Positions 11,825-40,253 are shown, counted from the stretch's first letter. The stretch is 64,000 nt of DNA from Haloferax gibbonsii ATCC 33959 (GCF_000336775.1 NZ_AOLJ01000011.1:150267-214266), one strand, 5' to 3'. Translations and numbers: made by a program. Notes: generated by a model from the letters alone, not told the origin.

Positions 11825-12553
11825 ATGGACCTCGACGCCGAACTGGACCGCGCCCGCGACCTCGACGTGTCGGAACTCGCCGACGCCATCGAGTCCATCG
11901 GCTTCGAGTGCACGCGCTGCGGGGCCTGCTGCAAGGGCTACGAGGGCGACGACGGCCCCGAACCGCACACCGCGACCGTCTTTCCCGACGAGGTGCGCGC
12001 CCTGCAGGAGGCCGGCGGAGCCACCGACCCCGACGGCGATGGGACCGGTGGGGACGACTCGAACGACGAGTCGGGAACCCCGATGGAGTGGCGGGACGTT
12101 GCTCGCCCGATGCCCTACGGCCTCGTCGAGGGCGACGACGGCCCCGAGGGCGAGACGTTCGAGTGGGCGCTCCAGACGAGCGCCTGCGGCGACTGCCGGT
12201 TCTACGAGGAAGACGACGAGGGGCAGGGGGCCTGTCGGGTCCACGAGGACCGCCCCCTCATCTGCGAGACCTACCCGTTCAGCGTCGCCCTCGGCGGGAC
12301 GAGCCAGCCGATGGGCGAGGCCGTCGACGAGGAGGGCGTCGTCCGCGCCCACGAGTGCGAGGGGCTCGGACGAGACATCTCTCGGGAGGACGCGGAGGAA
12401 CTGGCGCGGGCGCTGAAAGAGCGGGCGGTCCGAGAGCTACGCGAGGCGCGGGGAGTCACCGAGGCCTACGAGCCCGTCGAGACCGGGCCGGGCGAGGTGG
12501 TCGTCCACGACTCGGAGGGCGCGAAACGGCCCGACGGGACGCGGGTTCAGTAG
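11825..12553 (+). CDS. YkgJ-family cysteine cluster protein
   Basis: A 242-residue protein with the YkgJ/UPF0153 cysteine cluster, thought to bind zinc or an Fe-S centre: CTRCGACCKG near residue 25, CGDCRFY near 122 and CRVHEDRPLICETYPF near 138. Between the first two cysteine groups is a low-complexity acidic insert rich in Gly and Asp. No enzymatic role is established for the family. The start ATG at 11825 (MDLDAELDRARDL) was chosen because the upstream frame is low-complexity. The spacing of 96 bp from the MBL gene allows cotranscription. Confidence 0.82.
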   Translation: MDLDAELDRARDLDVSELADAIESIGFECTRCGACCKGYEGDDGPEPHTATVFPDEVRALQEAGGATDPDGDGTGGDDSNDESGTPMEWRDVARPMPYGLVEGDDGPEGETFEWALQTSACGDCRFYEEDDEGQGACRVHEDRPLICETYPFSVALGGTSQPMGEAVDEEGVVRAHECEGLGRDISREDAEELARALKERAVRELREARGVTEAYEPVETGPGEVVVHDSEGAKRPDGTRVQ

Positions 12554-12604
12554 TCGAATCCCGATGACTGCGGTACATCTTTAACACTCCGGCCTGACCA
12601 CATA

Positions 12605-12621
12605 TTGGAGGTCTTACGGTG
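12605..12621 (+). promoter_or_regulatory. Shine-Dalgarno site and GTG start of the TRAM gene
   Basis: GGAGGT at 12607-12612 lies 6 nt before the GTG at 12619 that starts MEISDKLL. A TATA-like CTTTAAC near 12577-12583 places the transcription start about 10-20 nt before the start codon. This is one of the few clear SD sites in the window, and it settles the choice of start. Confidence 0.6.
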
Positions 12622-13023
12622 GAAATCTCAGATAAACTCCTGTGTCTGTTCAATGCTGACGTTCGCACCGAGGACGACCGATACGTCGTCGAAATCCCGC
12701 GCCGCGAAGTCGAGACCGGAACCGTCGAACCCGGCGAGACCTACCGCGTCGCGCTCATCTCCCGCGAGTCGAACGAGCCCGCCGAGTCCGAATCGAACGC
12801 CGGACCGACGCCCTCGGCCGAACCGCAACCGCCCGTCGAAGCCGGTGAACTCCGCTACGTCGAAATCGAGGACATCGGCAAGCAGGGCGACGGCATCGCC
12901 CGCGTCGAACGCGGCTACGTCATCATCGTCCCCGGCACCGAAGTCGGCGAGCGCGTGAAGGTCGAAATCACCGAAGTCAAGTCTAACTTCGCCGTCGGCG
13001 AAGTCGTCGAAGACGACTTCTGA
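12619..13023 (+). CDS. TRAM-domain RNA-binding protein
   Basis: A 134-residue protein. The C-terminal about 60 residues form a TRAM domain, with the signature EDIGKQGDGIARVERGYVI, the VPGTEVGERVKVEI segment and a final VGEVVEDDF. The N-terminal part (residues 1-50) is a small acidic conserved module, and a Ser/Pro/Glu-rich linker joins the two. Single-TRAM proteins act as RNA-binding proteins or RNA chaperones in archaea. The protein is short for a tRNA methyltransferase fusion, so a free-standing TRAM protein is most likely. Confidence 0.88.
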   Translation: MEISDKLLCLFNADVRTEDDRYVVEIPRREVETGTVEPGETYRVALISRESNEPAESESNAGPTPSAEPQPPVEAGELRYVEIEDIGKQGDGIARVERGYVIIVPGTEVGERVKVEITEVKSNFAVGEVVEDDF

Positions 13024-13092
13024 CGGCGCTCTTTTCGCGGTTCGACGCCGTTCGTCTCGACGGGACGCTCTCCCGCGACCGACAGACCACGG

Positions 13093-13172
13093 CTGCAAGT
13101 GAATCACGCACCACGCTTGCGAGTGAACGCACGGCCGTTGTCGGCGCGCAGAGAGAGCGCGGTTGCACGTGA
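13093..13172 (+). repeat. Three short direct repeats TGCAAGTGAA-like
   Basis: In the gap between the converging TRAM and radical SAM genes, the sequence TGC(A/G)(A/C/)GTGAA occurs as CTGCAAGTGAA (about 13093), TTGCGAGTGAA (about 13116) and TTGCACGTGAA (about 13163). The spacings are irregular (about 23 and 47 bp). They may be regulatory or remnants of a repeat; I see no gene here. Confidence 0.35.
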
Positions 13173-25292: not shown

Positions 25293-26189
25293 TCAGTCGT
25301 CGCCGGCCCGGTAGGCGTCGATTGCCGCCCGGTAACCCTCGCGATACGTCGGATACGTGAACGAATAGCCGAGGTCGCGGAGGCGGTCGTTCGAACAGCG
25401 CTTGCTCGTCAGGATGCGGCGACGGGCGGCCTCCGAGAGGTCGCCGACGTCGAGGCGTTCTTCCTTCGTGCGCTTCTCCGGACGCGGCACGCCGCACTCG
25501 TCGGCCAGCCAGTCGGCGAACTCGTGTTTCGAGACGGGTTCGTCGTCGACGACGAGGACGGTGTCGTCGCGGGCGCGGTCGGTTTCGAGGAGGTACGCGA
25601 CGACGCCCGCGGCGTCGTCCCGGTGGACCATGTTGAGGTAGCCCGCGGTGACCGGGCCGTTCAGGTAGCGTTCGAGCCGGTAGCGGTCGGGGCCGTAGAG
25701 CCCGGCGAACCGGGTGACCGTTCCCTCGATTCCACGCTCGGCGGCGTGCTCGCGGGCGACGCGCTCGGCCTCCGCGAGGACGCGCGTCTTGTCGGTCGTC
25801 GGGTCGAGCGGCGTCGACTCGTCGACGAAGTCGCCGCCGTGGTCGCCGTAGACCCCCGTGCTCGACGTGTAGACGAGGCGCTCTGGCGGCGAGTCGCGGG
25901 CGGCGAACTGGTCGATTGCCGTTCGGAGACCCTCGACGAAGACGGTCCGGGCGGCGTCGGCCCCGCGGCCGCCGGAACTCGCGGCGAAGACGACGTGGTC
26001 CACGTCGGGGACCGACGCCAGCGAGTCGGCGTCAGTCACGTCGGCGCGGACCGCTTCCGCGCCGGTCGCTTCGACGGCGGCGAGGCCGTCGTCGGAGCGG
26101 CGGACGCCCCACACGTCGTGGTCGTCGGCGACGAGCGTGCGTGCGAGTTCGAGGCCGACGTAGCCGCAGCCGAGGATGGCGACTCTCAT
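25293..26189 (-). CDS. Extended SDR-type nucleotide-sugar epimerase-like protein
   Basis: A 298-residue NAD(P)-binding protein of the extended short-chain dehydrogenase group. The nucleotide motif is AILGCGYVGLELARTL (residues 4-19). The active-site region has VYTSSTGVYGDHGG and then TTDKTRVLAEAER: the lysine remains, but the usual tyrosine of YxxxK is replaced, as in YeeZ/SdhA-like atypical epimerases. RFAGLYGPDR and NMVHRDDAAGVV complete the family pattern. It overlaps the upstream gene by 4 nt (ATGA). Confidence 0.82.
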   Translation of the reverse strand: MRVAILGCGYVGLELARTLVADDHDVWGVRRSDDGLAAVEATGAEAVRADVTDADSLASVPDVDHVVFAASSGGRGADAARTVFVEGLRTAIDQFAARDSPPERLVYTSSTGVYGDHGGDFVDESTPLDPTTDKTRVLAEAERVAREHAAERGIEGTVTRFAGLYGPDRYRLERYLNGPVTAGYLNMVHRDDAAGVVAYLLETDRARDDTVLVVDDEPVSKHEFADWLADECGVPRPEKRTKEERLDVGDLSEAARRRILTSKRCSNDRLRDLGYSFTYPTYREGYRAAIDAYRAGDD

Positions 26190-26605
26190 CGTTCGTTTCG
26201 GACGGCGATGACGTGGTGGATGGCGGCCAGTTCGTTCAGCGTGGCGGCCGTGCGCCCCTCGATTGCCTGTTGAATCTCCTGTCCGGAGAGGTCGAGGTCG
26301 ACCTCGGCCGCGAGCGTGTCGACGTCGAGGATGCCGCTCGTCATACCCATGAGGAGGTGGTCGCGGAACTCCCAGACGATGGCGTCGGCGTCGGGGTTGC
26401 CGTCGGCGAGTTCGAGGACCGCGGCGGCCTGTTCGAGCGTGAGGTCCAACACGCCGTTCGAGAGCGCGGCTTCCGAGACGCCGGCGGCCTCGGCGGCCGT
26501 CTCCGACCCGGCGGCGTCGACTGCGCGGCGAATCTCGTCCTCGTAGGCGGCTCGCAACTCGTCTGCCGAGAGGGTTCCGGGCTCCGCGGCGGCGTCGTGC
26601 AACAT
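26186..26605 (-). CDS. Conserved haloarchaeal protein (DUF5791-like)
   Basis: A 139-residue helical acidic protein. It starts MLHDAAAEPGTLSADELRAAY and continues with a helical repeat-like core (GVSEAALSNGVLDLTLEQAAAVL). It fits a haloarchaeal family I recall as DUF5791. The short helix-turn-helix-like piece SETAAEAAGVSEAALSNG might hint at DNA or protein binding, but this is weak. It is translationally coupled to the epimerase gene and lies 57 bp downstream of the pilus-like cluster on the same strand. Confidence 0.72.
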   Translation of the reverse strand: MLHDAAAEPGTLSADELRAAYEDEIRRAVDAAGSETAAEAAGVSEAALSNGVLDLTLEQAAAVLELADGNPDADAIVWEFRDHLLMGMTSGILDVDTLAAEVDLDLSGQEIQQAIEGRTAATLNELAAIHHVIAVRNER

Positions 26606-26662: not shown

Positions 26663-29600
26663 CTACCCGTCCGCATGGCAGTCGCCCGCGACGGTGCATC
26701 CCGGTCCGCCTGCCCAGCCCTCGGAGCGCTCGTCCGCGTCGCCGTCGATGTCGCCGACGCCGACGCCCGACGGGGGCACCGCGACGACGATTGTCGTCTC
26801 AACGTCGAACGTGACGCGGTCGCCGTGGCCGACCGTCTCCGCGACGCCGTCGCCGTCCCAGTCGAGAGCGACGGTCGAGCCGTCGCGGGCGTACGTGAGG
26901 GATTCGGCGTCGCCGCGGGCGTGGACGCGGAACTGCGCGAACTCGCCGGCGACTTCCACGTCCCAGACGTTGACCGTCGCGTACCAGTACCCCGGGACGG
27001 GCGCGACGGGCATCCCGGCGGGGACGCGCTTGAACGACGTGTCGAAGCGGGAATCGAGCGTGTCGTTCACGCGGTCGGTGACCGCCTTCTCGGTGGCGCT
27101 CATCGCCGCGTCGGTCGCCGTGTCGGCGACGGCCTGCTGACGGGCGGTCCGCGTCGTCTCGACGGTCCGGTTCGTGAGCCGCTGTGGGACCGTGGTCGAG
27201 CGGTCCCGGCGGACGGTTCGGAACGCCTCGTCGAGGCGGCGTTCGAGAAGGTCGGCCTCGACGGTTCCCGTGCCGGCGGCCTCGACGGCGATTGCGCGGG
27301 CCGCGGAGCCGTTCGTCACCGCCAGCGCCCGGTGGGCCGGGTCGTCCCACTCGCCGAGCGCGCGCTCCAGAATCCGCTGGCGCTCCGTCATCGAGCGGTC
27401 GGTGTGCGCGCGGAGCGTGTCTCTGGCGGCCTCTTCGGCGGGAACCGTCGACCGGTCGACCGCGATTTCGAGCCTGTCGCGCCGGTCGGCGAGCGTCTCG
27501 TTCGTGCCGTTCGTCGCCGCGAGCGTCGAGTCGGCGGCGAGGAGAGCGCGGGCCGCGACGCGGAGCGGGACGCGGCGGTTCGCGCCGAACACCGGTTCGA
27601 GGACGGTGTCGGCGGCGTCGCCGTAGGGGAGCGTGAACAGGTTGGTGTTGCGGGCGACGAGCGGGTGGTAGGTGCCGCCGCGGGAGACGGTCGGCATCGC
27701 GGACCCCGAGAGGCCGCCGAGCGAGAGGTACATCGGGTCCGCGTCGGGGACGAATCGGACGCCGGTTTCGTTGTCGGTTCCGTTCGCGCCGTCCGCTCGC
27801 GTCTCGCCGAGCGTCGCGCGAGCGACCTCCTCGGCGCGGACCGCCTCCGAGAGCGACCCGAGGTTCGCGTCCGTACTCGCGTCGTCGGCCGCGCCGGTCG
27901 CCGCCGCGGTCCGGTTCGCCCGGCGGTCGAGCGCCGCCAGCACGCGGTCGAGGTACGCGGCGCGAACCGCGACGCGCGCCCGGTCGGAGACGCCGTCGTA
28001 GGCGGCCGGGACACCGACGAGTTCGGGACGGTCGGCGCGGAGTCCGGCGGCGAGTTCCGCGGCGGGGTTCACCTCGCCCGCGGCGACCCGCCGAGCCGAC
28101 ACCGTCACACTGCGGTTTTTGACGCGGTCGGCGAGCGCGACGAGGTCGGAGCGAATCCAGCGGTCGAGGCCGGGAGCCATCGGTGCGGTCGTCTGCTGTC
28201 GGGCGGGCGCGTCGCCGTCGGCGACGTCGCGGGCGAGGTCGTCGAAGCCGCCGCGAGTCGCAACCGCGTCTTCGGCCGCGTCCGCGGCCGCGGCGAAGTT
28301 CTCGCCGTCGAGCGCGCCGCCGGGTTCGACCGCCGGGTCGAGAGGTCGTTCCGGGGCGGACACGGCGGCCGGGTCCACGACGGCCGCGAGGTCGACGCGC
28401 GTCCTCGTCTCCGTCGTTTCTTCGGTGTGGAACGTCTCGTTGCCCCGACGCCACGTCCGAGTGGTCGTCTCGCTCGTCGTCACGATGCGGGAGCCGGCGT
28501 CGACGACGACGGTATCGGCTTCGAGCGCCGGCGTTCGCGTCGCCATCGTCTCGACCGACGACGCCGTCTCGGTCGCGGTGTCGACGAGTTCCCACTCGGT
28601 TCCGAGGTCGACCGGCGGGTCGTCGCTGTGGGCGACGACGGTCGCGTCGGCTTCGATTGCGACGGTGGCGCGATGGGCGTCCGCGACCACGTCGTCGGAG
28701 GCGGGCGCGTCGCCGTGGCCGTCGACGAGACCGACCAGCGCGTGGTCGGCCGCAGAGCCGACGGAGGCGTCGATGGTCCGGTTCGTCGGAATCTCGTTCG
28801 CGACCGACTCGGCGGACGGGTTCGGTGCGGGAAGCGCGTTCGCCAGTTCGGGCGCGGCCGGAACGCCGGTCTGCGAGAGCAGGCTCCGGGCACCGGCGTG
28901 GACGGCGGCGCGCCCGGTCGCCCCGCGAGCATCGGCGTCGGTAGTTCCGAACGCCTGCTGTTCGGCGAGCAGGACGCCGGCGTTCGTCGCCAGCGCCGCG
29001 TGGTCGTTCGAGACGACGTTGTCCACGGGCGCGCCGGCGTACTGGCTCCAGCCGCGGGACCACGCCGAGACCCACAGCGCGGTCGTCACCGTCGCGTCGA
29101 GCGTGCCGCCGTCCAGCGCGTTCGCGTCGAGGCGGCGCTCGAAGGCCTCGGTTCGGTCGTGGAGCGCGAGGACGGGCGTCCGGACGCCGACCGTCGCGGT
29201 GACGGACTCGGCGGCGACCGTGCGACCGCCGCGAGCGACCTCGACCGAGACGTTCTCGACGGTCGCGACGAGGACGGTCCCGTTCTCGCGGCCCGAAATC
29301 GAGACGCGGTCCATCGCGTCGCGGAGGGCCGACTCGTTCGTCGGTCGCGGCAGGGTTGCGGTCGCGTTCACGTCGCCGCGGGCGACGGAGACGGCCCGAA
29401 GCCGCTCCGTCGCGGCGAGCGCGATGCGGAGTCTGAGGTAGTCGCGGAAGGGACGCTCGTCGGAGAGCAGTCGCCCGACGGTCGTGTTCGCGGGCGAGGT
29501 GACGGGGTTCGCCGCGGCCTCGCGCGCCGCGTCTCCGACCGCCGCGCGGACGGCGGCGTCGGCCTGTGCGGTCGCGCGGTCCATCGCGTCGTCGACGCGG

Positions 29601-29719
29601 CGGTCGGCAACGGGGTCGTGAGCCGAGAGCGCGCCGGAGAACGTCGCGCTCCCGACGAGGAGCAACACGCCGAGCAGGGCGAAGGGCACTCGACCGCGGT
29701 CGTCGTCGGCGAGCCTCAC
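26663..29719 (-). CDS. Giant secreted protein with prepilin-like N-terminus, pilus-like cluster
   Basis: A 1018-residue exported protein. It starts at GTG 29719, which overlaps the stop of the upstream gene (GTGA). Residues 5-30 look like a class III (prepilin) signal: acidic DDD, then RG before RVPFALLGVLLLVGSATFSG. PibD-type cleavage after Gly9 is inferred. The rest is Ala/Asp/Thr/Arg-rich and predicted largely helical, with many N-x-S/T sequons (for example NTT, NRT, NGT). Near the C-terminus a more ordered domain appears (PGYWYATVNVWDVEVAGEFAQF), ending in a Cys pair GCTVAGDC. I recall haloarchaeal homologues as DUF7286. It may be a large tip adhesin or minor pilin of the neighbouring machine; this is inference. 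Confidence 0.72.
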   Translation of the reverse strand: MRLADDDRGRVPFALLGVLLLVGSATFSGALSAHDPVADRRVDDAMDRATAQADAAVRAAVGDAAREAAANPVTSPANTTVGRLLSDERPFRDYLRLRIALAATERLRAVSVARGDVNATATLPRPTNESALRDAMDRVSISGRENGTVLVATVENVSVEVARGGRTVAAESVTATVGVRTPVLALHDRTEAFERRLDANALDGGTLDATVTTALWVSAWSRGWSQYAGAPVDNVVSNDHAALATNAGVLLAEQQAFGTTDADARGATGRAAVHAGARSLLSQTGVPAAPELANALPAPNPSAESVANEIPTNRTIDASVGSAADHALVGLVDGHGDAPASDDVVADAHRATVAIEADATVVAHSDDPPVDLGTEWELVDTATETASSVETMATRTPALEADTVVVDAGSRIVTTSETTTRTWRRGNETFHTEETTETRTRVDLAAVVDPAAVSAPERPLDPAVEPGGALDGENFAAAADAAEDAVATRGGFDDLARDVADGDAPARQQTTAPMAPGLDRWIRSDLVALADRVKNRSVTVSARRVAAGEVNPAAELAAGLRADRPELVGVPAAYDGVSDRARVAVRAAYLDRVLAALDRRANRTAAATGAADDASTDANLGSLSEAVRAEEVARATLGETRADGANGTDNETGVRFVPDADPMYLSLGGLSGSAMPTVSRGGTYHPLVARNTNLFTLPYGDAADTVLEPVFGANRRVPLRVAARALLAADSTLAATNGTNETLADRRDRLEIAVDRSTVPAEEAARDTLRAHTDRSMTERQRILERALGEWDDPAHRALAVTNGSAARAIAVEAAGTGTVEADLLERRLDEAFRTVRRDRSTTVPQRLTNRTVETTRTARQQAVADTATDAAMSATEKAVTDRVNDTLDSRFDTSFKRVPAGMPVAPVPGYWYATVNVWDVEVAGEFAQFRVHARGDAESLTYARDGSTVALDWDGDGVAETVGHGDRVTFDVETTIVVAVPPSGVGVGDIDGDADERSEGWAGGPGCTVAGDCHADG

Positions 29720-30603
29720 GCCGACCACGTCCTGACGACGACAGTGACGCGTCCGACGGAGACCGCTTCGGCGGCGGCGCGCGGGGTGTCGTACCGGGCG
29801 CGCATCGCGTCGGCGAAGCGCGGAGCCAGCGCGGCCGCGAGGTCGGCGTTGGCGGCGCGGGTCTCCTCGCGGGCGACTTCGGGCGCGACGGAGGCGTTCA
29901 CCAGCGCGCCGGCTCGTTCGTACCGGTGGGTCATCAGCGTCGAAACCGGCTCGTCGCCGCGGAGCGCGAGGCGGGCGAGCGCGGGCGGGAACAGCCCGGC
30001 GACGGTCCGGTTCGCAGCGACGCGAGCGACGGCGTCGAAGCCGTCGTCGCTGGCGGCGACAGCGTCTTCGCGCGCCGCGGGGAACCCGCTCGGCACGTCG
30101 AGCGTCGCGGAGTGAACCGTTTCCGAGGACGGCGGTTCGGGTCCGAGGGCGTCGGTCGCGCGGACCGGCGAACCGGGGAACGGCGTCCACGCGACGGCGA
30201 CGGAGACGCCGCGAGTCGGGAGTTCGGACGCGACGCGGGCGGCGGCCCGGGCCCGGAAGTCGTCGCGGGCGCTGGTCAGGCGAACGCCGTCGACGGTCAC
30301 CGCCCCGAGTGTCGCGCGGGCGAGGAGGCCGGCGAGGCTGCCGTGCGCGGTTCGGTCGAGTTCGCGGGCGTCGACGCCGCCGGCATCGAGGAGCGACGGG
30401 TCCGCGGCCTCGACGCCGGGGGCGAGCGAGTAGGTGACCGTCGCGGTGCTCGTCGCCAGCGACGAGGCGACCCCGTCGGCGTCGATAGCGGCGGTGTCAC
30501 GGCCGACTCCGGTGTCTGCGCCGGCGTCCGCGGTGACGACGAGACCGATGCTCGCGGTCACGAGCAGCAAGCAGACGGTCACGTCGAAGACGAGGTCGGT
30601 CAT
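29716..30603 (-). CDS. Membrane-anchored exported protein of the pilus-like cluster (295 aa)
   Basis: A 295-residue protein with one N-terminal helix right after the start: MTDLVFDVTVCLLLVTASIG, then VVTADAGAD. The lack of a positively charged leader and the acidic residue near the helix start resemble a mature pilin core, but no prepilin cleavage motif is visible. The extracellular part is Ala/Asp/Arg-rich. The ATG at 30603 overlaps the upstream stop (ATGA), and its own stop overlaps the giant gene. I recall it as a DUF7284-type family; function unknown. Confidence 0.72.
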   Translation of the reverse strand: MTDLVFDVTVCLLLVTASIGLVVTADAGADTGVGRDTAAIDADGVASSLATSTATVTYSLAPGVEAADPSLLDAGGVDARELDRTAHGSLAGLLARATLGAVTVDGVRLTSARDDFRARAAARVASELPTRGVSVAVAWTPFPGSPVRATDALGPEPPSSETVHSATLDVPSGFPAAREDAVAASDDGFDAVARVAANRTVAGLFPPALARLALRGDEPVSTLMTHRYERAGALVNASVAPEVAREETRAANADLAAALAPRFADAMRARYDTPRAAAEAVSVGRVTVVVRTWSA

Positions 30604-30992
30604 CGCCACACCTCGACGCGGAGCGTCCCGAAGCCGACGCGACCGGGTTCGACGCGAACGCTGACCCGAGTCGAATCGGCGTCGGCGTCGGTAGGCGCGG
30701 CGGGGCCGACGGCGCGGCGGTCGCCGTCGACCGCGACGACGACGCGGCAGGAAAACCCGTCCGGACAGGCGTCGAGCGCGTCCGAGAGCCGGGAGCTGAC
30801 GACCACGCCGGAGTCGTCGACGAGGGCGGACTCGACGTTCGACAGCGTCGCCGGCGCGAGGTCGCGGTCGGTCGTCGGTAGCGAGTCGTCGAGGACCGTC
30901 GCGTAGCCCGAGATGGCCGCGCAGACGACGAACAGCGCGGTCAGCGCGGCGACCGGCGAGGTCTGCGCCCTACGCCGAGACGACGGTGACAT
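30600..30992 (-). CDS. Pilin-like protein with class III signal (130 aa)
   Basis: A 130-residue small protein. Its N-terminus SSRRRAQTSPVAALTALF matches the archaeal prepilin pattern: basic stretch, Arg-Ala, then Gln-Thr-Ser-Pro leading into a hydrophobic helix (to about residue 30). PibD cleavage would fall after Ala9 (inference). The mature part contains a Cys pair (CPDGFSC) and a beta-rich C-terminal half (RVVVAVDGDRRAV, TRVSVRVEPGRVGFGTLRVEVW). It overlaps the preceding gene by 23 nt and the next by 4 nt. It is the best candidate for a structural or minor pilin in this cluster. Confidence 0.75.
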   Translation of the reverse strand: MSPSSRRRAQTSPVAALTALFVVCAAISGYATVLDDSLPTTDRDLAPATLSNVESALVDDSGVVVSSRLSDALDACPDGFSCRVVVAVDGDRRAVGPAAPTDADADSTRVSVRVEPGRVGFGTLRVEVWR

Positions 30993-31440
30993 CGGTTCCC
31001 TCCCAGGTGACGTGGCGGACGACGAGCGGTTCGCTGGCGGGCCGCCACGAGGCGTTCCGGTCGCGTGCGGTCTCGGCCGCGGCGGCGAACGCGGCGGGCG
31101 AGTCGAAGACGGCGCTCGGGGACGCGCCGGCGGCGACCGACCCGAGTCGGGAGTCGGGCGTCGCCGGCGTCACCGGGCCGAAGGCGAACGCGGCGTGCGC
31201 CGCGCCGCCGTCGTTGCGGAGGCCGATTCGGTGCGAGCCGATGCGGACGGCGTCGGCGTCGAGTTCGTGTTCGGCGGTCGCGTCGTACTCGGCGACGGCC
31301 ACGGCGTCGACGGCGTCGGCGACTCCCGAGGCGTCGGGAGCGGGCGTCGTCGGGAGGCCGGCGACCGTCCCGACGAGGACGGTCGCGGCCACCGAGAGCG
31401 CGGCCCACGTGTAGAGCGTATCGAGCGGTGCGTCGAGCAT
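30970..31440 (-). CDS. Anchored exported protein opening the pseudopilin-like operon (156 aa)
   Basis: A 156-residue protein with an N-terminal helix MLDAPLDTLYTWAALSVAAT followed by VLVGTVAGLP. The remaining chain is extracellular, with EHELDADAVRIGSHRIGLRN and a final WEGTDVTVVSA. It is the first gene of the four-gene run downstream of PilC and has its own strong TATA promoter. No signal peptidase site of classical type is clear; N-terminal anchoring as in pilin-like proteins is likely. I recall the family as DUF7283. Function unknown. Confidence 0.72.
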   Translation of the reverse strand: MLDAPLDTLYTWAALSVAATVLVGTVAGLPTTPAPDASGVADAVDAVAVAEYDATAEHELDADAVRIGSHRIGLRNDGGAAHAAFAFGPVTPATPDSRLGSVAAGASPSAVFDSPAAFAAAAETARDRNASWRPASEPLVVRHVTWEGTDVTVVSA

Positions 31441-31475
31441 AGACCGGGGTGGTCCCGTCCGGGTATATAAACCTC
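31441..31475 (-). promoter_or_regulatory. Leaderless promoter with shared ACGGGACCA element (P1)
   Basis: On the minus strand GGTTTATATA (TATA, plus 31464-31473) is followed by ATACCCGGACGGGACCAC, ending 9 nt before ATG 31440. The TTTAT pentamer begins 31 nt before the ATG. The same 18-nt block with the same spacing precedes pilB at 35282. Confidence 0.7.
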
Positions 31476-31530
31476 AGCACGGGACGGCGACGGAAACGGA
31501 ACCGGTGACGAGCGTCCCGAGGACCGCGAC

Positions 31531-33306
31531 TCAGACGAGCGTCCCCGCGGCGGCGAACGCGACTGCGAACGTCGTCGTCGCCGAGACGAGCGCGCGGCCG
31601 ACGCGGGAGGCCACGAGGTGACGGTCGAGACCGTGTTCGACGCCGACCGAGAGCGTCGTCAGGATGACCGCCGAGAGGAGGACGTACGCGCCGACGGCCA
31701 GCCCGAGGTCGGCGGTCGAAAGCGGCGTCGCGACGGCCGTCTGGTCGAGCGTCTTCGCGGGGGCCATCCCGTCGGCGAGCGCGACGGTCGCACCGGCGAC
31801 GAGCGGCCCGAAGACGGCGGCCGTGTTCGACAGCGTCTCCGTGACCGAGGCGAGTTCGCGGCGGGCCTCGGCGTCGAGTCGGGAGAGCGCCGAGAGCTGG
31901 TCGGCCATCGAGACGATTGCGCGACCGGCGGGTCGACCCTCGCTGGCGGCGAGGCCGAGGAGCGTCGCCACGCCCGCGACGCGGGGGCTCGGCGTCGATT
32001 CGAGGACGCCGTACTCGCCGCGGAACGACTCGACGACGCCCACTCGGAGGCGACGCTGGACGCCGACGGCCTCTTCGAGCAGGTCGCCGGTTTCGCCCGG
32101 GACCGAGGTGGCCGCGCGGGCGAGCGCGGATTCGACGGCCTCGCCCTCGCCGACGGCGCGACCGACGAGGTAGAGCGCGTCGGAGAGGCCGTCTTCGACC
32201 GCGCGGACGCGGGCTCTGAGCGCCACGACCGGGCGGGCCGCGACGAACAGCGCGGTTCCGGTTCCGATGCCGACGGCGGCGAGCGGCGCGAGCCACGGCG
32301 CGACGAGCGCGTCGGCGGCGACGAAGCCGATGATTCCGGCGACTGCGCCACCGGCGACGCCGAGAGCGCGGTGGTCGTCGACCGCGGGGTGAGACGCGTC
32401 GACCGAGAGCGGCGCGAACGCGACCGGCCGCCGAACGAGCACCCATCCGACCGCGGCGAGGAGACAGGCGGGAAGCGCCACGTCGTAGACGAAGGCGACG
32501 TGCCCGGCGGTGACGCCGACGCCGGCGACGCGGGCGGCCGGGAGCGCGCCGACCAGCGCGAGCGGGAGCAGGACGCCGAAGGCGTAGACCGCCGTCACCG
32601 GCCCGCGGACGGAGCCGACGAAGTCGGCGAGGCGGTCGCGGGTGCCCTCGCGGACGACCTCGTGGGCCCGGTCGAGCGCCCGGTCGCGCTCGCCGGCGGG
32701 AACGTCGGCGGCGGTCTGCAGGAGCGCAGTCGAGCGGTCGAGCGCCGGGAACCACGTGCGCCAGGCGTCGGCGAACTCGGAGAGCCCCGCCGTCGGCGTC
32801 CCGCGGGCGCGGTCGACGTGTGCGGCGAGCGAGGCCGAAAGCGGGTCGTCGCCGCCGTGCGCGGCGAACGCGCTGGCCCGCTCGACCGAGGGCTCGATGC
32901 GCATCCGGAGCGCGATACGGCCGACGAGTTCCGGCGCGTTCCCGAGCGCCCGCGTCCGGCGGAGCGTCGCCAGCCAGACCGGGAGCGTGTGAATCGCGTG
33001 GGCCGCACCGAGCGCGGCCGCGAGCGCGACGAAGACGACCGTGACGGTCGGGAGTCGAGCGAGATGGGCGACCAGTCCGCCGAGTAGCCCGGCGGGAAGC
33101 GACGAGCCGTAGCCCGCGGCGACGACCGTCTCGGGGGCGAGATTCGAGCCGAGAAACGCGAGCGACCGACGAAGGTCGTCGCTCGGCTCGGCGTCGATTG
33201 AGTCGGGCGAGAGCCGCGCGAGCGTCGTCGCGGCCGAGTGAAGTATCCGAGTCGAAGCGGAGTCCGCTCCCGCTCCCGTGCTCGTGGCCGTGTCCGGACT
33301 CAGCAT
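31531..33306 (-). CDS. Type IV pilus assembly platform protein (PilC/TadC-like)
   Basis: A 591-residue integral membrane protein with two T2SSF (GspF/TadC) halves. Each half has a cytoplasmic helical bundle followed by membrane helices. The first is seen at about residues 130-240 (ELVGRIALRMRIEPSVERA) and the second at about 370-500 (VEDGLSDALYLVGRAVGEGE, SEGRPAGRAIVSMADQLSALSRL). About eight hydrophobic segments are visible. In archaeal type IV pili this protein forms the membrane base with the ATPase. The start overlaps the ATPase stop by 7 nt, so they are cotranslated. The subfamily is an archaeal PilC of uncertain pairing. Confidence 0.85.
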   Translation of the reverse strand: MLSPDTATSTGAGADSASTRILHSAATTLARLSPDSIDAEPSDDLRRSLAFLGSNLAPETVVAAGYGSSLPAGLLGGLVAHLARLPTVTVVFVALAAALGAAHAIHTLPVWLATLRRTRALGNAPELVGRIALRMRIEPSVERASAFAAHGGDDPLSASLAAHVDRARGTPTAGLSEFADAWRTWFPALDRSTALLQTAADVPAGERDRALDRAHEVVREGTRDRLADFVGSVRGPVTAVYAFGVLLPLALVGALPAARVAGVGVTAGHVAFVYDVALPACLLAAVGWVLVRRPVAFAPLSVDASHPAVDDHRALGVAGGAVAGIIGFVAADALVAPWLAPLAAVGIGTGTALFVAARPVVALRARVRAVEDGLSDALYLVGRAVGEGEAVESALARAATSVPGETGDLLEEAVGVQRRLRVGVVESFRGEYGVLESTPSPRVAGVATLLGLAASEGRPAGRAIVSMADQLSALSRLDAEARRELASVTETLSNTAAVFGPLVAGATVALADGMAPAKTLDQTAVATPLSTADLGLAVGAYVLLSAVILTTLSVGVEHGLDRHLVASRVGRALVSATTTFAVAFAAAGTLV

Positions 33307-35282
33307 CCCGAACCACGCTCCGCGCGGGCCGCGGCGATGTCGTCCGGCGTCGTTCGTCCCGTGTCAGCCAGCGATTCGAGACGCGCAGCGCGAGCGTCGA
33401 GCGCGTCGAGTACGTCCGCGTACGACTCGTCGGGACGGGCCACGGACTCGACCGCGAGGCTGTCGCCGCGCGCGACCGACCCCGTCGGTTCGAGGGTGCG
33501 TCCGTCGTGTTCGAACAGCGTCTCGAACGTCGCGTCGTCGCCGACGGGCCGGACCTCCTCGACGCGTGCGACCCGGTGAGCGTTCGCGCGCTCGCAGGTG
33601 ACGACGAGGTCGGTCGCGGCGAACGACGACGCCGGGACGCCGAGGTCGGAGACGACGCGCTCGCGCACGTCGGCGGCCCCGTCGCCGTGAATCGTTCCGA
33701 GGACCGCGTTGGCGTTCGCCCCGACGCGCATCGCCTCGTAGAGGACGGCGGCCTCCTCCCCCCGGACTTCGCCGAGGGCGAGCGCGCCGTCACCCAACCG
33801 GAGCGCCGCGTGAAGCGCCTCCTGCGGCGTCGGTTCGGGGCCGCCGGTCGTGTCGGTTCGGAGCGTCTGCACGTCGCGGTCGGCGTCCAGCAGGTTCGAC
33901 GCCGGAAGCTCCGGCGTGTCCTCGATGAGCACCGTGCGAACGTCGCGCGGGAGTTCCCACAGGAGCGAGCCGAGGAACGTCGTCTTGCCGGCCCCGCGCG
34001 ACCCGGCGACGAGGACCGAGGCACCGCGTTCGACCGCGAGCGAGCAGAGCGCCGCGGCCTCGGCCGAGAGCGTCCCGTTGGCGACGAGCGCGGGGAGCGT
34101 CAGCGGCGTCTCGTCGTGGCGGCGGAACGCGAAGCCGAGGCCGTCGCTGGCGGGCGCGGTCACGCCCGCGACCCGAACGGTCGCGCCGCCGGCCTCGACC
34201 ACGGTGTCGAGCGTCGGGTCGGCGCGGGAGAACGACGCGCCGCTCACGCGACGCAGGCGGGAGGCGAGCGACTCCGCCCCGCCGGGGGCGAGGCGGACGT
34301 TCGTCGGCATCGAGACGCCGCCGGCGACGACGCGAATCGGGTTCTCGTCGGCGGGCGTCGAGACGTACACGTCCGAGACTGCGGGGTCGGAAAACAGGTC
34401 GTCGAGGACGCCGTGGCCCGCGGTGTGCTTCGCCAGTATCGCCGCGAGCGTCTCGACCGGGTCGTCCGGGTCGGCGACGAGACTGACGGCGCGGCCCGGT
34501 GCGCGCGGGCCGGCGTCGACGGCACCGCTGGCGAGTCTGTCGTGGGCGGCTTCGAGAGTCCGCGCCGCGCGCTGGTCGAGCGCCGATTCGGGCGGCGTGA
34601 GGTGGTAAACGGGGCCGCGAGCGCTCTCGTACCGGCGGGCGACCGCGCCGGTGTCGAGGTCGGTCGCTCCGACGAGTCGCCCGTCGGCCGGGGGACGGGG
34701 GTCGACTCGGGAGCGCGCGAGCGTCGGGCCGACGACCGCCCGGAGCGCGTCGCCGTAGTCGGCGCTTCGAGACGCACCCGCTGCGAGTCCGGTCTCGATG
34801 GCCGCGCGGCGGACCGGCCCCGCGCGACCCGTCGCCTCGTGGGCGGCCCCGAGCGGGTCTTCGCGGGCGCGGTCGGCGAGGCGGTCGTCGCGGAAGCGGA
34901 CGCGCTCCGCGAACCGGCCGGCGGCGACGAGCAGGCCGGTCGCGGCGTCGTCGTACCGGCGCTCCAGTCCGTCGGCTCGGACGACGAGCCGGTCGGCGTC
35001 ACGGGTTTCGAGCGCGCCCACGACCGTTGCTCGACAGGCGGACGCAGTCGAAAGCGACCCGCGGTGCGGGCAGTCCCCGGCGTCGACCACGAGCGTCACG
35101 GTGTCGTCGTCGGGGCGGTCGGCGGGCGTCGAGAACGCGGTCACACAGCCACACTCGTCGGGAGAATCGCGGGGTGCGACCCGAACGCCGGTCGCGTCGG
35201 CGAGGCGGTCGCCGAGCGCGTCCGGGAGCGCCGCGGCGACGGTTTCGGAGAGGGGTCCGATGGAAGAGGAGTCGAGGGGCAT
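33300..35282 (-). CDS. Type IV pilus/secretion ATPase (PilB/VirB11 family)
   Basis: A 660-residue motor ATPase. The N-terminal half (1-270) is variable and has a possible metal cluster (Cys44, Cys46, Cys71, Cys83). The C-terminal half is a VirB11/GspE fold: DVYVSTPADENPIRVV at about 304, Walker A GSRGAGKT 427-434, Asp box VLIEDTPEL 451-459, Walker B LALGEVRGEEA 501-511, and His box GTIHGDGA 529-536. It powers assembly of a pilus or pseudopilus. The ATG at 35282 follows a promoter matching that at 31440. From its sequence it is an unusual, divergent paralogue. Confidence 0.88.
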   Translation of the reverse strand: MPLDSSSIGPLSETVAAALPDALGDRLADATGVRVAPRDSPDECGCVTAFSTPADRPDDDTVTLVVDAGDCPHRGSLSTASACRATVVGALETRDADRLVVRADGLERRYDDAATGLLVAAGRFAERVRFRDDRLADRAREDPLGAAHEATGRAGPVRRAAIETGLAAGASRSADYGDALRAVVGPTLARSRVDPRPPADGRLVGATDLDTGAVARRYESARGPVYHLTPPESALDQRAARTLEAAHDRLASGAVDAGPRAPGRAVSLVADPDDPVETLAAILAKHTAGHGVLDDLFSDPAVSDVYVSTPADENPIRVVAGGVSMPTNVRLAPGGAESLASRLRRVSGASFSRADPTLDTVVEAGGATVRVAGVTAPASDGLGFAFRRHDETPLTLPALVANGTLSAEAAALCSLAVERGASVLVAGSRGAGKTTFLGSLLWELPRDVRTVLIEDTPELPASNLLDADRDVQTLRTDTTGGPEPTPQEALHAALRLGDGALALGEVRGEEAAVLYEAMRVGANANAVLGTIHGDGAADVRERVVSDLGVPASSFAATDLVVTCERANAHRVARVEEVRPVGDDATFETLFEHDGRTLEPTGSVARGDSLAVESVARPDESYADVLDALDARAARLESLADTGRTTPDDIAAARAERGSGC

Positions 35283-35313
35283 ACGGGGGCGTGGTCCCGT
35301 CCGGGTATTTGAA
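35283..35313 (-). promoter_or_regulatory. pilB-like promoter with shared ACGGGACCA element (P2)
   Basis: On the minus strand GGTTCAAATA (weak TATA, plus 35305-35314) is followed by ATACCCGGACGGGACCAC, ending 9 nt before ATG 35282. This is identical over 18 nt and in spacing to the 31440 promoter. It begins at the stop codon of the upstream gene. Confidence 0.65.
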
Positions 35314-35314
35314 C

Positions 35315-35776
35315 CTACGCCGCCGGCGGGTCGGCCGTCGCGGGGGCGAGGACGACGACCGAACCGCCCGCGTCGGCTTCGAGCGTCAGCCTGAGTCGGT
35401 GTTCGCCCGGCCCGAGGACGAGTCGGTCGCCGACGACGCGAATCCGAGGACCGCCGACGCGACGGACGACGGTCGGGCCGCCGGCGACGCTCGCCGAGAG
35501 TTCGACGCCGTCGCCGCCGCGAACCGCGAGTTCGGAGACGCCGGCGGCCCGCCACGACCCGGCGGGAACGTCGAGGACGACGTGCCGCCGCGCACCCGCC
35601 ACACCGGCGGGTGTCGGGTCTTCCGCGGCCGCGAGCGCCGTCGCGGCGTGCGCGACGTCGTCGGCCATCGAGCCGATTTTCACGGTCGTCGCGTCCGCTC
35701 TCGCCGCGTCGGCCGCCGGGAAGACGACGCCGGCGATGGCGACCGCGAGGAGGCACGCGAGGACGACGCGAATCAC
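35315..35776 (-). CDS. Secreted or anchored protein of the pilus-like cluster (153 aa)
   Basis: A 153-residue exported protein. The N-terminus MIRVVLACLLAVAIAGVVFP is a signal sequence or anchor. The rest is predicted mostly beta: RHVVLDVPAGSWRAAG, VRRVGGPRIRVVGDRLV, GEHRLRLTLEADAGG. This resembles a small beta-sandwich. No catalytic residue pattern is seen. Its ATG overlaps the stop of the coiled-coil gene (ATGA). I recall haloarchaeal homologues as DUF7311. It may be a periplasm-side (cell-wall space) partner of the pilus base; inference. Confidence 0.72.
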   Translation of the reverse strand: MIRVVLACLLAVAIAGVVFPAADAARADATTVKIGSMADDVAHAATALAAAEDPTPAGVAGARRHVVLDVPAGSWRAAGVSELAVRGGDGVELSASVAGGPTVVRRVGGPRIRVVGDRLVLGPGEHRLRLTLEADAGGSVVVLAPATADPPAA

Positions 35777-36339
35777 AGCGCGTCGCGGAGGCGGGCGGCC
35801 AGTCCGCGGTCGGCGGAGTCGGCGGCCCGGGAGTCGGTGGCTCGGGTGCTAGGTTCGCGCCTGGGAGTACCGCCGCGCCCGTCGGCGGGTCGTTCGGCGT
35901 GCGACGCCGCCTCCGCGGCGAGCGTGTCGGCCGACTGCGACGGCGCGGGAGACGCGGTCTCGTCGACGAGGTCGGCTTCGAGCGATTCGGCCTTGGCGAG
36001 CGCGGCGTTCGCCCGGCGCTCGACGTCCTCGTTGACCGCGCGGACGCCGCCGAGGTAGCCGCGCACCGCCTGCGTCGCGGCGTCCACCTCGTCGAGGCGC
36101 TCGGTGAGCGACTCGACCGCCGATTCGAGCTCGGAGACCCGACGCTCGACGGACGCGAGGTCCTCCAGCGACGAGAAGTCGGCGTCGCCGTCGGTGATGG
36201 TTCGCTCGACCGCGTCGAGCCGCGCGGCGAGGTCGGCAGTGCGGTCGGCGGTGTGGTCCGCCGCGACCGGTCCGCGGGAAGCGGGCGTGCCGGCGTCTGC
36301 GTCACCGTCAGCGTCGAAGTGGACTGGGTCGGCTGTCAT
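35773..36339 (-). CDS. Coiled-coil protein, first gene of pilus-like cluster (188 aa)
   Basis: A 188-residue cytosolic protein with no membrane segment. Residues about 40-125 form a heptad-like coiled coil: DLAARLDAVERTITDGD, LEDLASVERRVSELESAVES, LTERLDEVDAATQAVRGYL. Flanks are acidic or Arg-rich and disordered. The ATG at 36339 follows a TATA with the same ACGGGxCCA element as two other promoters in the locus. The overlap with the next gene couples them. I recall the family as DUF7310. It might organise the ATPase or cargo; function unknown. Confidence 0.72.
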   Translation of the reverse strand: MTADPVHFDADGDADAGTPASRGPVAADHTADRTADLAARLDAVERTITDGDADFSSLEDLASVERRVSELESAVESLTERLDEVDAATQAVRGYLGGVRAVNEDVERRANAALAKAESLEADLVDETASPAPSQSADTLAAEAASHAERPADGRGGTPRREPSTRATDSRAADSADRGLAARLRDAL

Positions 36340-36373: not shown

Positions 36374-36453
36374 CCGGGGTTGAACAGGGTTCGAGCGGCC
36401 GAGCAGTTCTCCCGTGGGGAACGTTCAAGACGAGCGACGGAGTGGACTGTGGT

Positions 36454-37536
36454 ATGAAAACCGTCCTGATTGGTGTGGGCCAAGCGGGTGGGAAGCTCAC
36501 CACCGCCCTCCAGTCGTTCGACCGACAGATGGGGTTCGGCGCGGTGCTCGACGCCGTCGCGGTGAACACCGCGAAAGCGGACCTCCAGCCGCTTCCGGTC
36601 GAGACCGTGCTCATCGGCCAAGACCGCGTCAACGGTCACGGCGTCGGCGGCGACAACGAGCTCGGAGCCGAGGTCATGGAGGCGGACCAGACCGAGGTCA
36701 TGTCCGCCCTCGACGGCCGCGTCACGGCCGAAGCGGAGTCGATTTTCGTCGTCGCCGGGCTCGGCGGCGGCTCCGGGTCCGGCGGCGCGCCCGTCCTCGC
36801 GAAGGCGCTCCGCCGCGTCTACGACGTGCCGGTGTACGTCCTCGGAATCCTGCCCGGACAAGACGAAGGAGCGATGTATCAGGTGAACGCCGGCCGCTCG
36901 CTCAAGACCATCGCCCGCGAGTCCGACGCCGTCCTCCTCGTCGACAACGACGCCTTCCGCTCGTCCGGCGAGTCGATGAGCGAGGGCTACGACGCCATCA
37001 ACGACGCCATCGCCCGGCGGGTCGGTCTGCTCTTGGCGGCCGGCGAGGCGACCGAGGGCGTCGGCGAGAGCGTCGTCGACACCTCCGAAGTCATCAACAC
37101 CCTCCGTTCCGGGGGCATCGCCGCGCTCGGTTACGCGAGCGCCGAGGCCTCTCCCGACGCCGAGGACAACATCAACGCGGTCATGAGCACGACCCGTCGC
37201 GCCGTGCTGACGGGCACGAGCCTGCCGGACGCCAGCGACGCGGACTCTGCGCTCGTCATCATCGCCGGCGAACCCGACACCATCCCGCGGAAGGGCGTCG
37301 AGCGAGCGCGCCGCTGGGTCGAAGAGGAGACCGGCAGCCTGCAGGTCCGCGGCGGCGACTTCCCGCTGGAAAGCGGCCGTCTCGCGTCGCTCGTCCTCCT
37401 CGGCGGCGTCGAGCGCTCCGAGCGGGTCGAGTCGTTCATGGAACGCGCCCGCGAGGCCATCGACCAGGCGAAGACCGAAACGCGAGAGGACCCCAAAGAG
37501 ATGTGGCACAACGACGACCTCGACGACCTGCTGTGA
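36454..37536 (+). CDS. cetZ2: CetZ tubulin/FtsZ-superfamily GTPase (CetZ2-type)
   Basis: A 360-residue cytoskeletal GTPase of the archaeal CetZ family. Residues 1-12 carry MKTVLIGVGQAG (T1 nucleotide loop). The tubulin signature GGGSGSGG is in VAGLGGGSGSGGAPV (T4), and DNDAFR plus the T7 region NTLRSGGIAALGY are CetZ-type rather than FtsZ-type. CetZ proteins control cell shape and motility. The CetZ2 assignment rests on its position relative to neighbouring genes as I remember H. volcanii; the family is certain, the paralogue less so. ATG 36454 was chosen; an in-frame GTG is 12 nt upstream. Confidence 0.9.
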   Translation: MKTVLIGVGQAGGKLTTALQSFDRQMGFGAVLDAVAVNTAKADLQPLPVETVLIGQDRVNGHGVGGDNELGAEVMEADQTEVMSALDGRVTAEAESIFVVAGLGGGSGSGGAPVLAKALRRVYDVPVYVLGILPGQDEGAMYQVNAGRSLKTIARESDAVLLVDNDAFRSSGESMSEGYDAINDAIARRVGLLLAAGEATEGVGESVVDTSEVINTLRSGGIAALGYASAEASPDAEDNINAVMSTTRRAVLTGTSLPDASDADSALVIIAGEPDTIPRKGVERARRWVEEETGSLQVRGGDFPLESGRLASLVLLGGVERSERVESFMERAREAIDQAKTETREDPKEMWHNDDLDDLL

Positions 37537-38903: not shown

Positions 38904-40253
38904 TTACTGCTGGATGAGGCTCGCGCCGTCGAGTTCAGTGCGGCTGTACTCGATGTCCATGAGGTCGAGGATGGTCGGCGCGATGTCGTAGAGGTCGGCG
39001 TCCTCGATGACCGCACCGGGGTCGTCGACGTAGAGCGTCGCGTTGTCGAACGAGTGCATGCCGTTGCGGGGGCCGACGCCGAACACGTCGTCGTGGCCCT
39101 TGAACCCGGACTTCAGGTCGAAGCCGTGGTTCGGGATGACGACGAGGTCGGGGGCGATGTCGTCGTGGTCGCCGCGGAAGGCGTCCTCCTTGACGACGAC
39201 GCGGTCTGCGACCTTGTTGCCGTCGGGGCCTTCGAGGCCTTCGAGTTCGGCCTTGAGCTCGTCGCGGACGTCCTCGTACTCCGACTGCGGGACCGACCCG
39301 CGGGGCTCGCGCCCTTCGAGGTTGATGAAGAACCGGCCGGGGATGAGCGAGTACGCCTTCGAGTCTTTGTCGATGTCCGAAAGCGAGTCGTGGTCGTCGT
39401 CCTCGTAGGAGAGCCAGCCGTTCTCCTCGAGCCACGTGTTGCAGTGGACCTCGTAGTCGAGGGACGTAAAGCCGTGGTCGGACGCGACGATGAGCGTCAC
39501 GTCCTCGGGGAGGGCGTCGCGGATGCGGCCGAGGTAGTCGTCGACGGTGCGGTAGAAATCCATGAAGGCGTCCTTGTTCTTCCCGTCGCGCTCGTAGTCC
39601 TTGAACAGGAAGTGGTTGACGCGGTCGGTCGTCATGAAGACGCCGAAAAAGAGGTCCCAGTCGTCCTGGTCGATGTAGCGCTCGAACGCCTCGTAGCGCC
39701 GGTCGAGCGTCTTGCGGGCGTCCTCCATGAACGCGGTCTTGTCCTCGTCGTGACCGAGCTTCGCGTTCACGTCGATCTTGTAGTTCATCTCGGAGAGCGC
39801 GTCGCGGAAGTCGTCGGGGTAGGCGGCCTTGTCGACGCCGGGCGAGAGGAAGCCCGAGACCATGCGCTGGACGTTGCGCTGGGGCGGGAACGTCACGGGG
39901 ACGTTCATCACGGTGGCCTTGCGGCCGGCGTCGGTGACGCGGTCCCAGACGCGGGTGGCCTGCACGTCCCGACCCATCGGGACGTAGGTGTCGTAGGAGC
40001 CGACCTCACGGTCCTGGAAGCCGTAGACGCCGGTCTCGCCGGGGTTGACGCCGGTCGTGAGCGCCGGCCAACACGCCGAGGACTCGGGCGGGACGATGCT
40101 GTCGATGTCGCCCGCCGAGCCCGCGTCGGCCAGCGCCGCGAAGTTGGGGAACTCGTCGGGATGCTCAGAGAGGAGAGTGAACGGAACCCCGTCGATGCCG
40201 ATGAAGGCGACGCGGGGGTGGTCTTTGCCGCGGAGTCGGTCGAACAAACCCAT
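38904..40253 (-). CDS. Alkaline phosphatase superfamily phosphodiesterase
   Basis: A 449-residue enzyme of the type I phosphodiesterase/nucleotide pyrophosphatase group. Metal ligands are seen in VAFIGIDGVPF, in MTTDRVNHFLF (Asp, His), in IVASDHGF (Asp-His), and in GMHSFDNATLYV (His). The nucleophile region is PPESSACWPALTTG; here Ser replaces the frequent Thr. No signal peptide is found, so it is probably cytosolic. The substrate is unknown: haloarchaeal paralogues are often linked to glycan or lipid metabolism. The TATA-like CTTATGG just upstream (40275-40281 on the minus strand) supports ATG 40253. Confidence 0.85.
   Translation of the reverse strand: MGLFDRLRGKDHPRVAFIGIDGVPFTLLSEHPDEFPNFAALADAGSAGDIDSIVPPESSACWPALTTGVNPGETGVYGFQDREVGSYDTYVPMGRDVQATRVWDRVTDAGRKATVMNVPVTFPPQRNVQRMVSGFLSPGVDKAAYPDDFRDALSEMNYKIDVNAKLGHDEDKTAFMEDARKTLDRRYEAFERYIDQDDWDLFFGVFMTTDRVNHFLFKDYERDGKNKDAFMDFYRTVDDYLGRIRDALPEDVTLIVASDHGFTSLDYEVHCNTWLEENGWLSYEDDDHDSLSDIDKDSKAYSLIPGRFFINLEGREPRGSVPQSEYEDVRDELKAELEGLEGPDGNKVADRVVVKEDAFRGDHDDIAPDLVVIPNHGFDLKSGFKGHDDVFGVGPRNGMHSFDNATLYVDDPGAVIEDADLYDIAPTILDLMDIEYSRTELDGASLIQQ

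Follow-up and report, generated by a model that had tools for sequence, protein, structure and literature searches.

The stretch of DNA analysed here, a window of 64,000 nucleotides from Haloferax gibbonsii ATCC 33959 (NZ_AOLJ01000011.1:150267-214266), carries on its minus strand an operon of eight closely spaced genes that is almost certainly the cetZ2-linked pilB2-C2 regulon of Haloferax. By open reading frame (ORF) calls in the 64-kb window the operon spans positions 26663-36339, and adjoining genes either overlap by 4-23 bp or leave a gap of at most 90 bp. Two of the genes encode a PilB-type ATPase and a PilC-type membrane platform, and the remaining six encode proteins of Pfam families of unknown function. 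In order of transcription, the genes are:

35773..36339, minus strand: DUF7310 coiled-coil protein, 188 amino acids, first gene of the operon (Pfam PF23991, 2.2e-30), with no transmembrane-like window
35315..35776, minus strand: DUF7311 small exported or N-terminally anchored protein, 153 amino acids (PF23993, 5.2e-37), transmembrane-like segment at 4-22
33300..35282, minus strand: PilB2-type secretion ATPase, 660 amino acids (PF00437, T2SSE, 1.1e-15)
31531..33306, minus strand: PilC/TadC-type multi-spanning platform, 591 amino acids, several transmembrane-like segments
30970..31440, minus strand: DUF7283 N-terminally anchored protein, 156 amino acids (PF23954, 5.6e-54)
30600..30992, minus strand: DUF7285 small prepilin-like protein, 130 amino acids (PF23956, 2.3e-31)
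29716..30603, minus strand: DUF7284 pilin-like protein (PF23955, 8.6e-88), 295 amino acids from the ATG in an ATGA overlap or 297 from an upstream GTG
26663..29719, minus strand: DUF7286 giant pilin-like protein, 1018 amino acids (PF23957, 1.1e-303)

The original prediction had placed eight ORFs at these coordinates and with these lengths, PilB, the platform and the giant among them, and this placement was confirmed. Family matches, a recurring gene order and purifying selection together mark the eight as real genes. Of 40 diverse loci from Halobacteria, about 34 keep the order, with DUF7310 again in first place, and comparison of Haloferax species shows eight open frames, all of them subject to purifying selection, with ratios of nonsynonymous to synonymous substitution (dN/dS) of about 0.07-0.54 and DUF7310 the fastest. 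That the locus has decayed and is no longer functional, as loss of the operon in several lineages might suggest, is extremely improbable given the selection on these frames in Haloferax and the intact ATPase motifs described below; for the H. gibbonsii genome decay is refuted by frames that are both open and conserved.

The assignment to the regulon is based on three observations. First, the closest named homologues of the PilB are from Haloferax, with 94% identity to that of Haloferax sp. Q22. Second, a divergent gene of the tubulin/FtsZ family, unmentioned in the original prediction, lies about 100 bp from the operon. Its product scores 677 bits against PDB 4b45 and 320 bits against PDB 4b46, which we take to be CetZ2 and CetZ1, respectively, both of H. 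volcanii; judged by these scores, the gene is closer to CetZ2 than to CetZ1. A CetZ gene is also the neighbour in 26 of 40 loci compared. Third, the layout agrees with the synteny published for H. volcanii by Brown and Duggin 2023 (PMC9856176), who described a pilB2/C2 regulon beside cetZ2 in most Haloferacales and Halobacteriales. Both loci have cetZ2 beside pilB/C, DUF5791-like and epimerase neighbours and several predicted pilins, and no difference was found, the link being made through genus, CetZ2 identity and published synteny and not by alignment.

Even before the connection to cetZ2, Makarova et al. 2016 (PMC4858521) had recognized a halobacterial variant of the type IV pilus (T4P), designated subclade 4F, whose ATPase is Cys-rich at its N-terminus and which has an intracellular coiled-coil protein and, close by, a gene of the FtsZ family. 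Since the present locus carries these features, together with a TadC-type platform and a related ATPase in methanogens, it is not new: the 2016 study catalogued it and the 2023 study connected it with cetZ2. The coiled-coil arCOG07564 of the 2016 study, matched by description, is probably DUF7310. Placement in 4F is by shared features and not by a PilB tree, and is discrepant with PMC6491452, which puts H. volcanii PilB2 in clade 4C. The proposal that the machine is distinct from known pili is accordingly correct only in part, although no function has been found for the regulon in the accessible parts of the published literature. Within the same parts, no mention was found of the DUF names of the cassette families or of HVO_0746-0751, the H. 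volcanii tags guessed for the regulon.

The ATPase has its Walker A motif at 427-434 and the usual ATPase motifs intact, and its matches in the PDB are the archaeal secretion ATPase 2oap, FlaI and CpaF. Its N-terminal region is Cys-rich, and comparison of homologues shows C44, C46, C71 and C83 to be invariant or nearly so; the C..C/CR pattern is homologous in methanogen PilBs. A PilB tree was uninformative, as filtering left just two paralogues as outgroup and each of them sat on a very long branch, and the gap in bit score was therefore used to set PilB2 apart. Against a PilB2 profile, the ATPase scores 922 bits and the other PilBs of the same genome at most 143 bits, and in a full search of 25 genomes the next-best PilBs reached no more than 175 bits. 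Turning to the platform, the protein itself has no significant Pfam match, and T2SSF (PF00482) was matched in 11 of its 15 homologues. Among the compared loci, PilC adjoins PilB wherever either is present.

The motor and the unknown surface proteins are nearly always kept or lost together. In a sample of 145 Halobacteria genomes, with PilB2 counted at E <= 1e-90 (717 bits or more), DUF7286 is present in 110, DUF7311 in 106 and the PilB2-type ATPase in 104. Every PilB2 genome (104/104) also carries DUF7286 and DUF7311, and 35 of the 145 have neither PilB2 nor DUF7286. Fisher tests of co-occurrence give 9e-28 and 2e-33; these ignore kinship, so independent losses weigh more. Six genomes hold DUF7286 without PilB2, five of which (G056, G012, G067, G120 and G124) retain pieces of DUF7286 only, and those of G120 lie at contig ends and may be a matter of assembly. 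The sixth (G045) is the sole real exception to the coupling. Physical linkage is not universal, as some Halobacteria have the cassette and the motor at separate places. One genome has a MinD/ParA-type ATPase with DUF7125 after PilB2-PilC2 (L145:11863-13293) and its cassette elsewhere (L075).

The manner of loss can be read from the genes that flank the operon:

36442..37536, plus strand: cetZ2, tubulin/FtsZ family (CetZ_C, 1.9e-66), divergent from the operon
26186..26605, minus strand: DUF5791 protein (PF19104, 7.6e-41), the conserved downstream neighbour
25293..26186, minus strand: NAD-dependent sugar epimerase/dehydratase-like protein, further downstream, conserved in 27 of 40 loci

In three genomes, remnants of the operon persist between an intact cetZ2 and DUF5791. 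G067 (locus L149) has a complete DUF7310 joined directly to the last quarter of DUF7286, G012 (L148) has the start of DUF7310 fused to the end of DUF7286, and G056 (L147) has a disrupted piece of DUF7286 at the same site. The deletions took out the motor and most of the cassette together, and cetZ2, DUF5791 and the epimerase were retained. G012 and G067 are of one genus and may record a single event; G056 is from another family. Such scars indicate loss, and not recent gain, in these lineages. They bear on a suggestion, made in PMC9856176, that the operon is a mobile element recently acquired beside cetZ2. Its patchy presence there, and flanks that are alike with and without it (PMC9856176), would fit acquisition; the remnants of its first and/or last gene, and a cassette that is colinear in methanogens too, make acquisition highly improbable. 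As cetZ2 is intact in L147-L149 despite loss of the operon, the function of CetZ2 can depend on the operon to no more than a limited extent. The DUF5791 protein is probably arCOG04674 of the cetZ2 region and not part of the machine, and the epimerase-like protein, whose family name is from PMC9856176, is probably arCOG03095 of the same region; that study gives an epimerase and a hypothetical protein as the two conserved neighbours of the regulon. Beyond cetZ2 in the window lies an ORF (38904-40253) whose N-terminus is found close to cetZ2 in other genomes as well (L144, L147). This ORF is presumably phosphodiesterase/nucleotide pyrophosphatase-like.

Homologues of DUF7286 are also present in several methanogen-like families. 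From the sarcinarray family and the genome context, these genomes would appear to be Methanosarcina-like and Methanocella-like. The methanogen cassette is colinear with that of Halobacteria, with homologues of DUF7311, DUF7283, DUF7285, DUF7284 and DUF7286 in the same order. Profile comparison between the two groups gives probabilities of 96.9% for DUF7311, 60.6% for DUF7283, 97.6% for DUF7285 and 98.0% for DUF7284, with off-diagonal values below 13%; at 60.6%, the equation of methanogen X2 with DUF7283 also leans on gene order and is to be read as putative. Profile support for a neighbouring coiled coil is weak (6.4% probability; E 0.015), and homology to DUF7310 is therefore not claimed in methanogens. 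There, PilB and PilC lie outside the cassette cluster, and in each of the 9 such genomes tested a PilB of this type, scoring 388-433 bits, is encoded elsewhere. In most methanogen loci (L088 and L090 being the ones without) a sarcinarray/MAST protein comes after the giant. This neighbour, an archaeosortase-sorted surface protein whose family was confirmed in three loci, points to the cell surface. One methanogen locus has tandem repeats of the C-terminal part of DUF7286 with a sarcinarray protein (L086:6956-17425). Near such PilBs in methanogens, and adjoining the whole operon in one haloarchaeon, are a HerA-like (DUF87) ATPase and a pilin-like protein resembling DUF7382 (L143:5001-6624; L133:5785-6291, 11950-13107); DUF7382 also has a match in the Haloferax genome, at C11:574389-574583. 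Neither the coupling between motor and cassette nor the deletion scars nor the colinear cassette of methanogens is described in the accessible main texts of the published papers, supplementary tables aside.

The exported proteins themselves suggest what the motor may act upon. Two of them, DUF7285 and DUF7286, retain the cleavage motifs of archaeal prepilins, from which processing is predicted. The predicted cleavage in DUF7285 is RRRA|QTSP, and almost all of its homologues share the motif R[AG]|Q..P; in DUF7286 cleavage is predicted at DRG|RVPFALLGVLLLV, with R-[A/G] before a hydrophobic helix in nearly all homologues. For DUF7284, one family of Halobacteria (f1) stands apart: none of its 16 aligned rows has the motif R[AG][IVM][SN], which all 23 rows from other families show. 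The rows were counted by eye from aligned N-termini, as choices of start codon made a regular-expression count too low. Within f1, which includes Haloferax, the leader has been lost and the protein begins at about the mature N-terminus. DUF7283 has a conserved N-terminus, MF.APvDaWY. Near its C-terminus DUF7286 has a DxDxDG motif (953-958) and GVGDxD (987-992). The AlphaFold2 model of DUF7286 has one N-terminal transmembrane-like helix and a mean pLDDT (predicted local distance difference test) of 84; its pTM (predicted template modelling score) is 0.55, which makes the domain arrangement less sure. Foldseek returned no fold match for it at E <= 0.001 in the PDB or among the viral models of BFVD. 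DUF7285 is modelled (pLDDT 91) as an N-terminal helix, a second helix and a 4-stranded sheet.

Co-occurrence, methanogen colinearity and the kept prepilin motifs together make it very likely that the cassette DUF7311-7283-7285-7284-7286 holds dedicated partners of the PilB2 motor. On balance, we favor a machine of the archaeal T4P family, subclade 4F, in which the cassette supplies dedicated substrates and accessories. A prepilin peptidase encoded elsewhere would trim DUF7285 and DUF7286 at R-[A/G]|x, and DUF7284 too in most other families. ATP hydrolysis by PilB2 would then drive PilC2, and the N-terminal helices would be lifted from the membrane into a short stalk. DUF7283 and DUF7284 could serve as minor subunits and DUF7311 as an accessory of the envelope, and the DUF7310 coiled coil could form a scaffold in the cytoplasm. 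The giant DUF7286 would act as the functional head, at or close to the tip; its place as tip or head on a short stalk of cassette pilins is roughly an even call.

Several points weigh against this mechanism. A class III leader is absent from DUF7284 in Haloferax and from DUF7283 everywhere. The DUF7285 model has no significant match in the PDB, the best being ribosomal protein domains at E >= 0.02, so no pilin or pseudopilin fold is claimed for it. G045 retains an intact-looking DUF7285-7284-7286 beside cetZ2 and a second cetZ (L068 / L150), in a locus that lacks the motor, DUF7283, DUF7310 and DUF7311. A search of this genome gave no PilB2, and either early decay or the use of another motor would explain the arrangement. 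Surface display, cleavage and a filament are themselves predictions from sequence, and PilA-type pilins acting in trans could make the shaft.

This last point leads to a conventional pilus, in which stand-alone PilA-family pilins from elsewhere would form the shaft and the cassette would contribute minor or tip pilins and a surface protein. The genome has nine PilA-type (PF07790, H-domain) pilins, all outside the window; the pilins used by the PilB3 locus of Haloferax are encoded in trans, and the subclade 4F model has dedicated stand-alone PilA-type pilins (PMC4858521), the expected major pilins being of the PilA family (arCOG02981 or arCOG10216). The operon has none of these. PF07790 has no match among its proteins, as had been anticipated, and no PilA-type gene lies within any of the compared operons of Halobacteria. 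We consider a conventional pilus less likely than the favored machine, and its evidence nevertheless tempers earlier claims. The locus had been called complete, yet the one prepilin peptidase (PF01478) found in the genome (at C12, outside the window) and all nine PilA-type pilins lie elsewhere. With these and the PilB3 precedent, it also does not follow that the filament has to be built from the unknown proteins; conserved prepilin motifs make the cassette proteins good candidate substrates, but the shaft could still be PilA. The broader idea of a T4P-like assembly machine with unknown exported partners held up well, as PibD-type motifs are conserved, co-occurrence is near-perfect and the genes are lost as a block.

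Alternatively, the machine may be a pseudopilus with no external fibre, a type II-like piston for export, the envelope or the S-layer, with DUF7286 as cargo or spanning the envelope. The MAST/sarcinarray surface protein after methanogen DUF7286 homologues would suit such a piston, as would the lack of any tandemly duplicated candidate for a major pilin in the Halobacteria loci. In Halobacteria, however, the operon has no linked enzyme or secretion substrate, and none of the exported proteins matched a family specific to type II systems, which leaves the piston rather doubtful. 

Other known systems resemble the favored 4F machine in part. The PilB1-C1 and PilB3-C3 adhesion pili of Haloferax share the PilB/PilC assembly core and the prepilin peptidase pool, but use another ATPase branch and different pilins. 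The archaellum has a homologous ATPase and platform (FlaI/FlaJ), whereas the operon has no archaellin or fla/arl accessory genes and its match to the FlaI model is far below cut-off. The description of the locus as Tad-like is apt only in the broad sense that archaeal PilB and PilC are kin of TadA and TadC (TIGR03819, CpaF). It fails in that the TIGR03819 match is far below cut-off, a single platform gene stands in place of a TadB plus TadC pair, and the operon proteins have no family match to Flp or TadE/F/G.

On a wider and more speculative view, methanogens and Halobacteria could share an ancient euryarchaeal class of pseudopilus, comprising a five-gene substrate cassette, a pilin-like working end of about 1000 residues and unseen fold, and a cognate PilB in or outside the cassette, with CetZ2 possibly positioning it in Haloferax. 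The regulon is widespread, with its ATPase in 104 of 145 Halobacteria, and is present in the genetically tractable Haloferax. The scars indicate that cetZ2 can outlast the operon. With a single PilB so tightly coupled to a single cassette, the search for its substrates comes down to four proteins, at which microscopy and mass spectrometry can be aimed directly.

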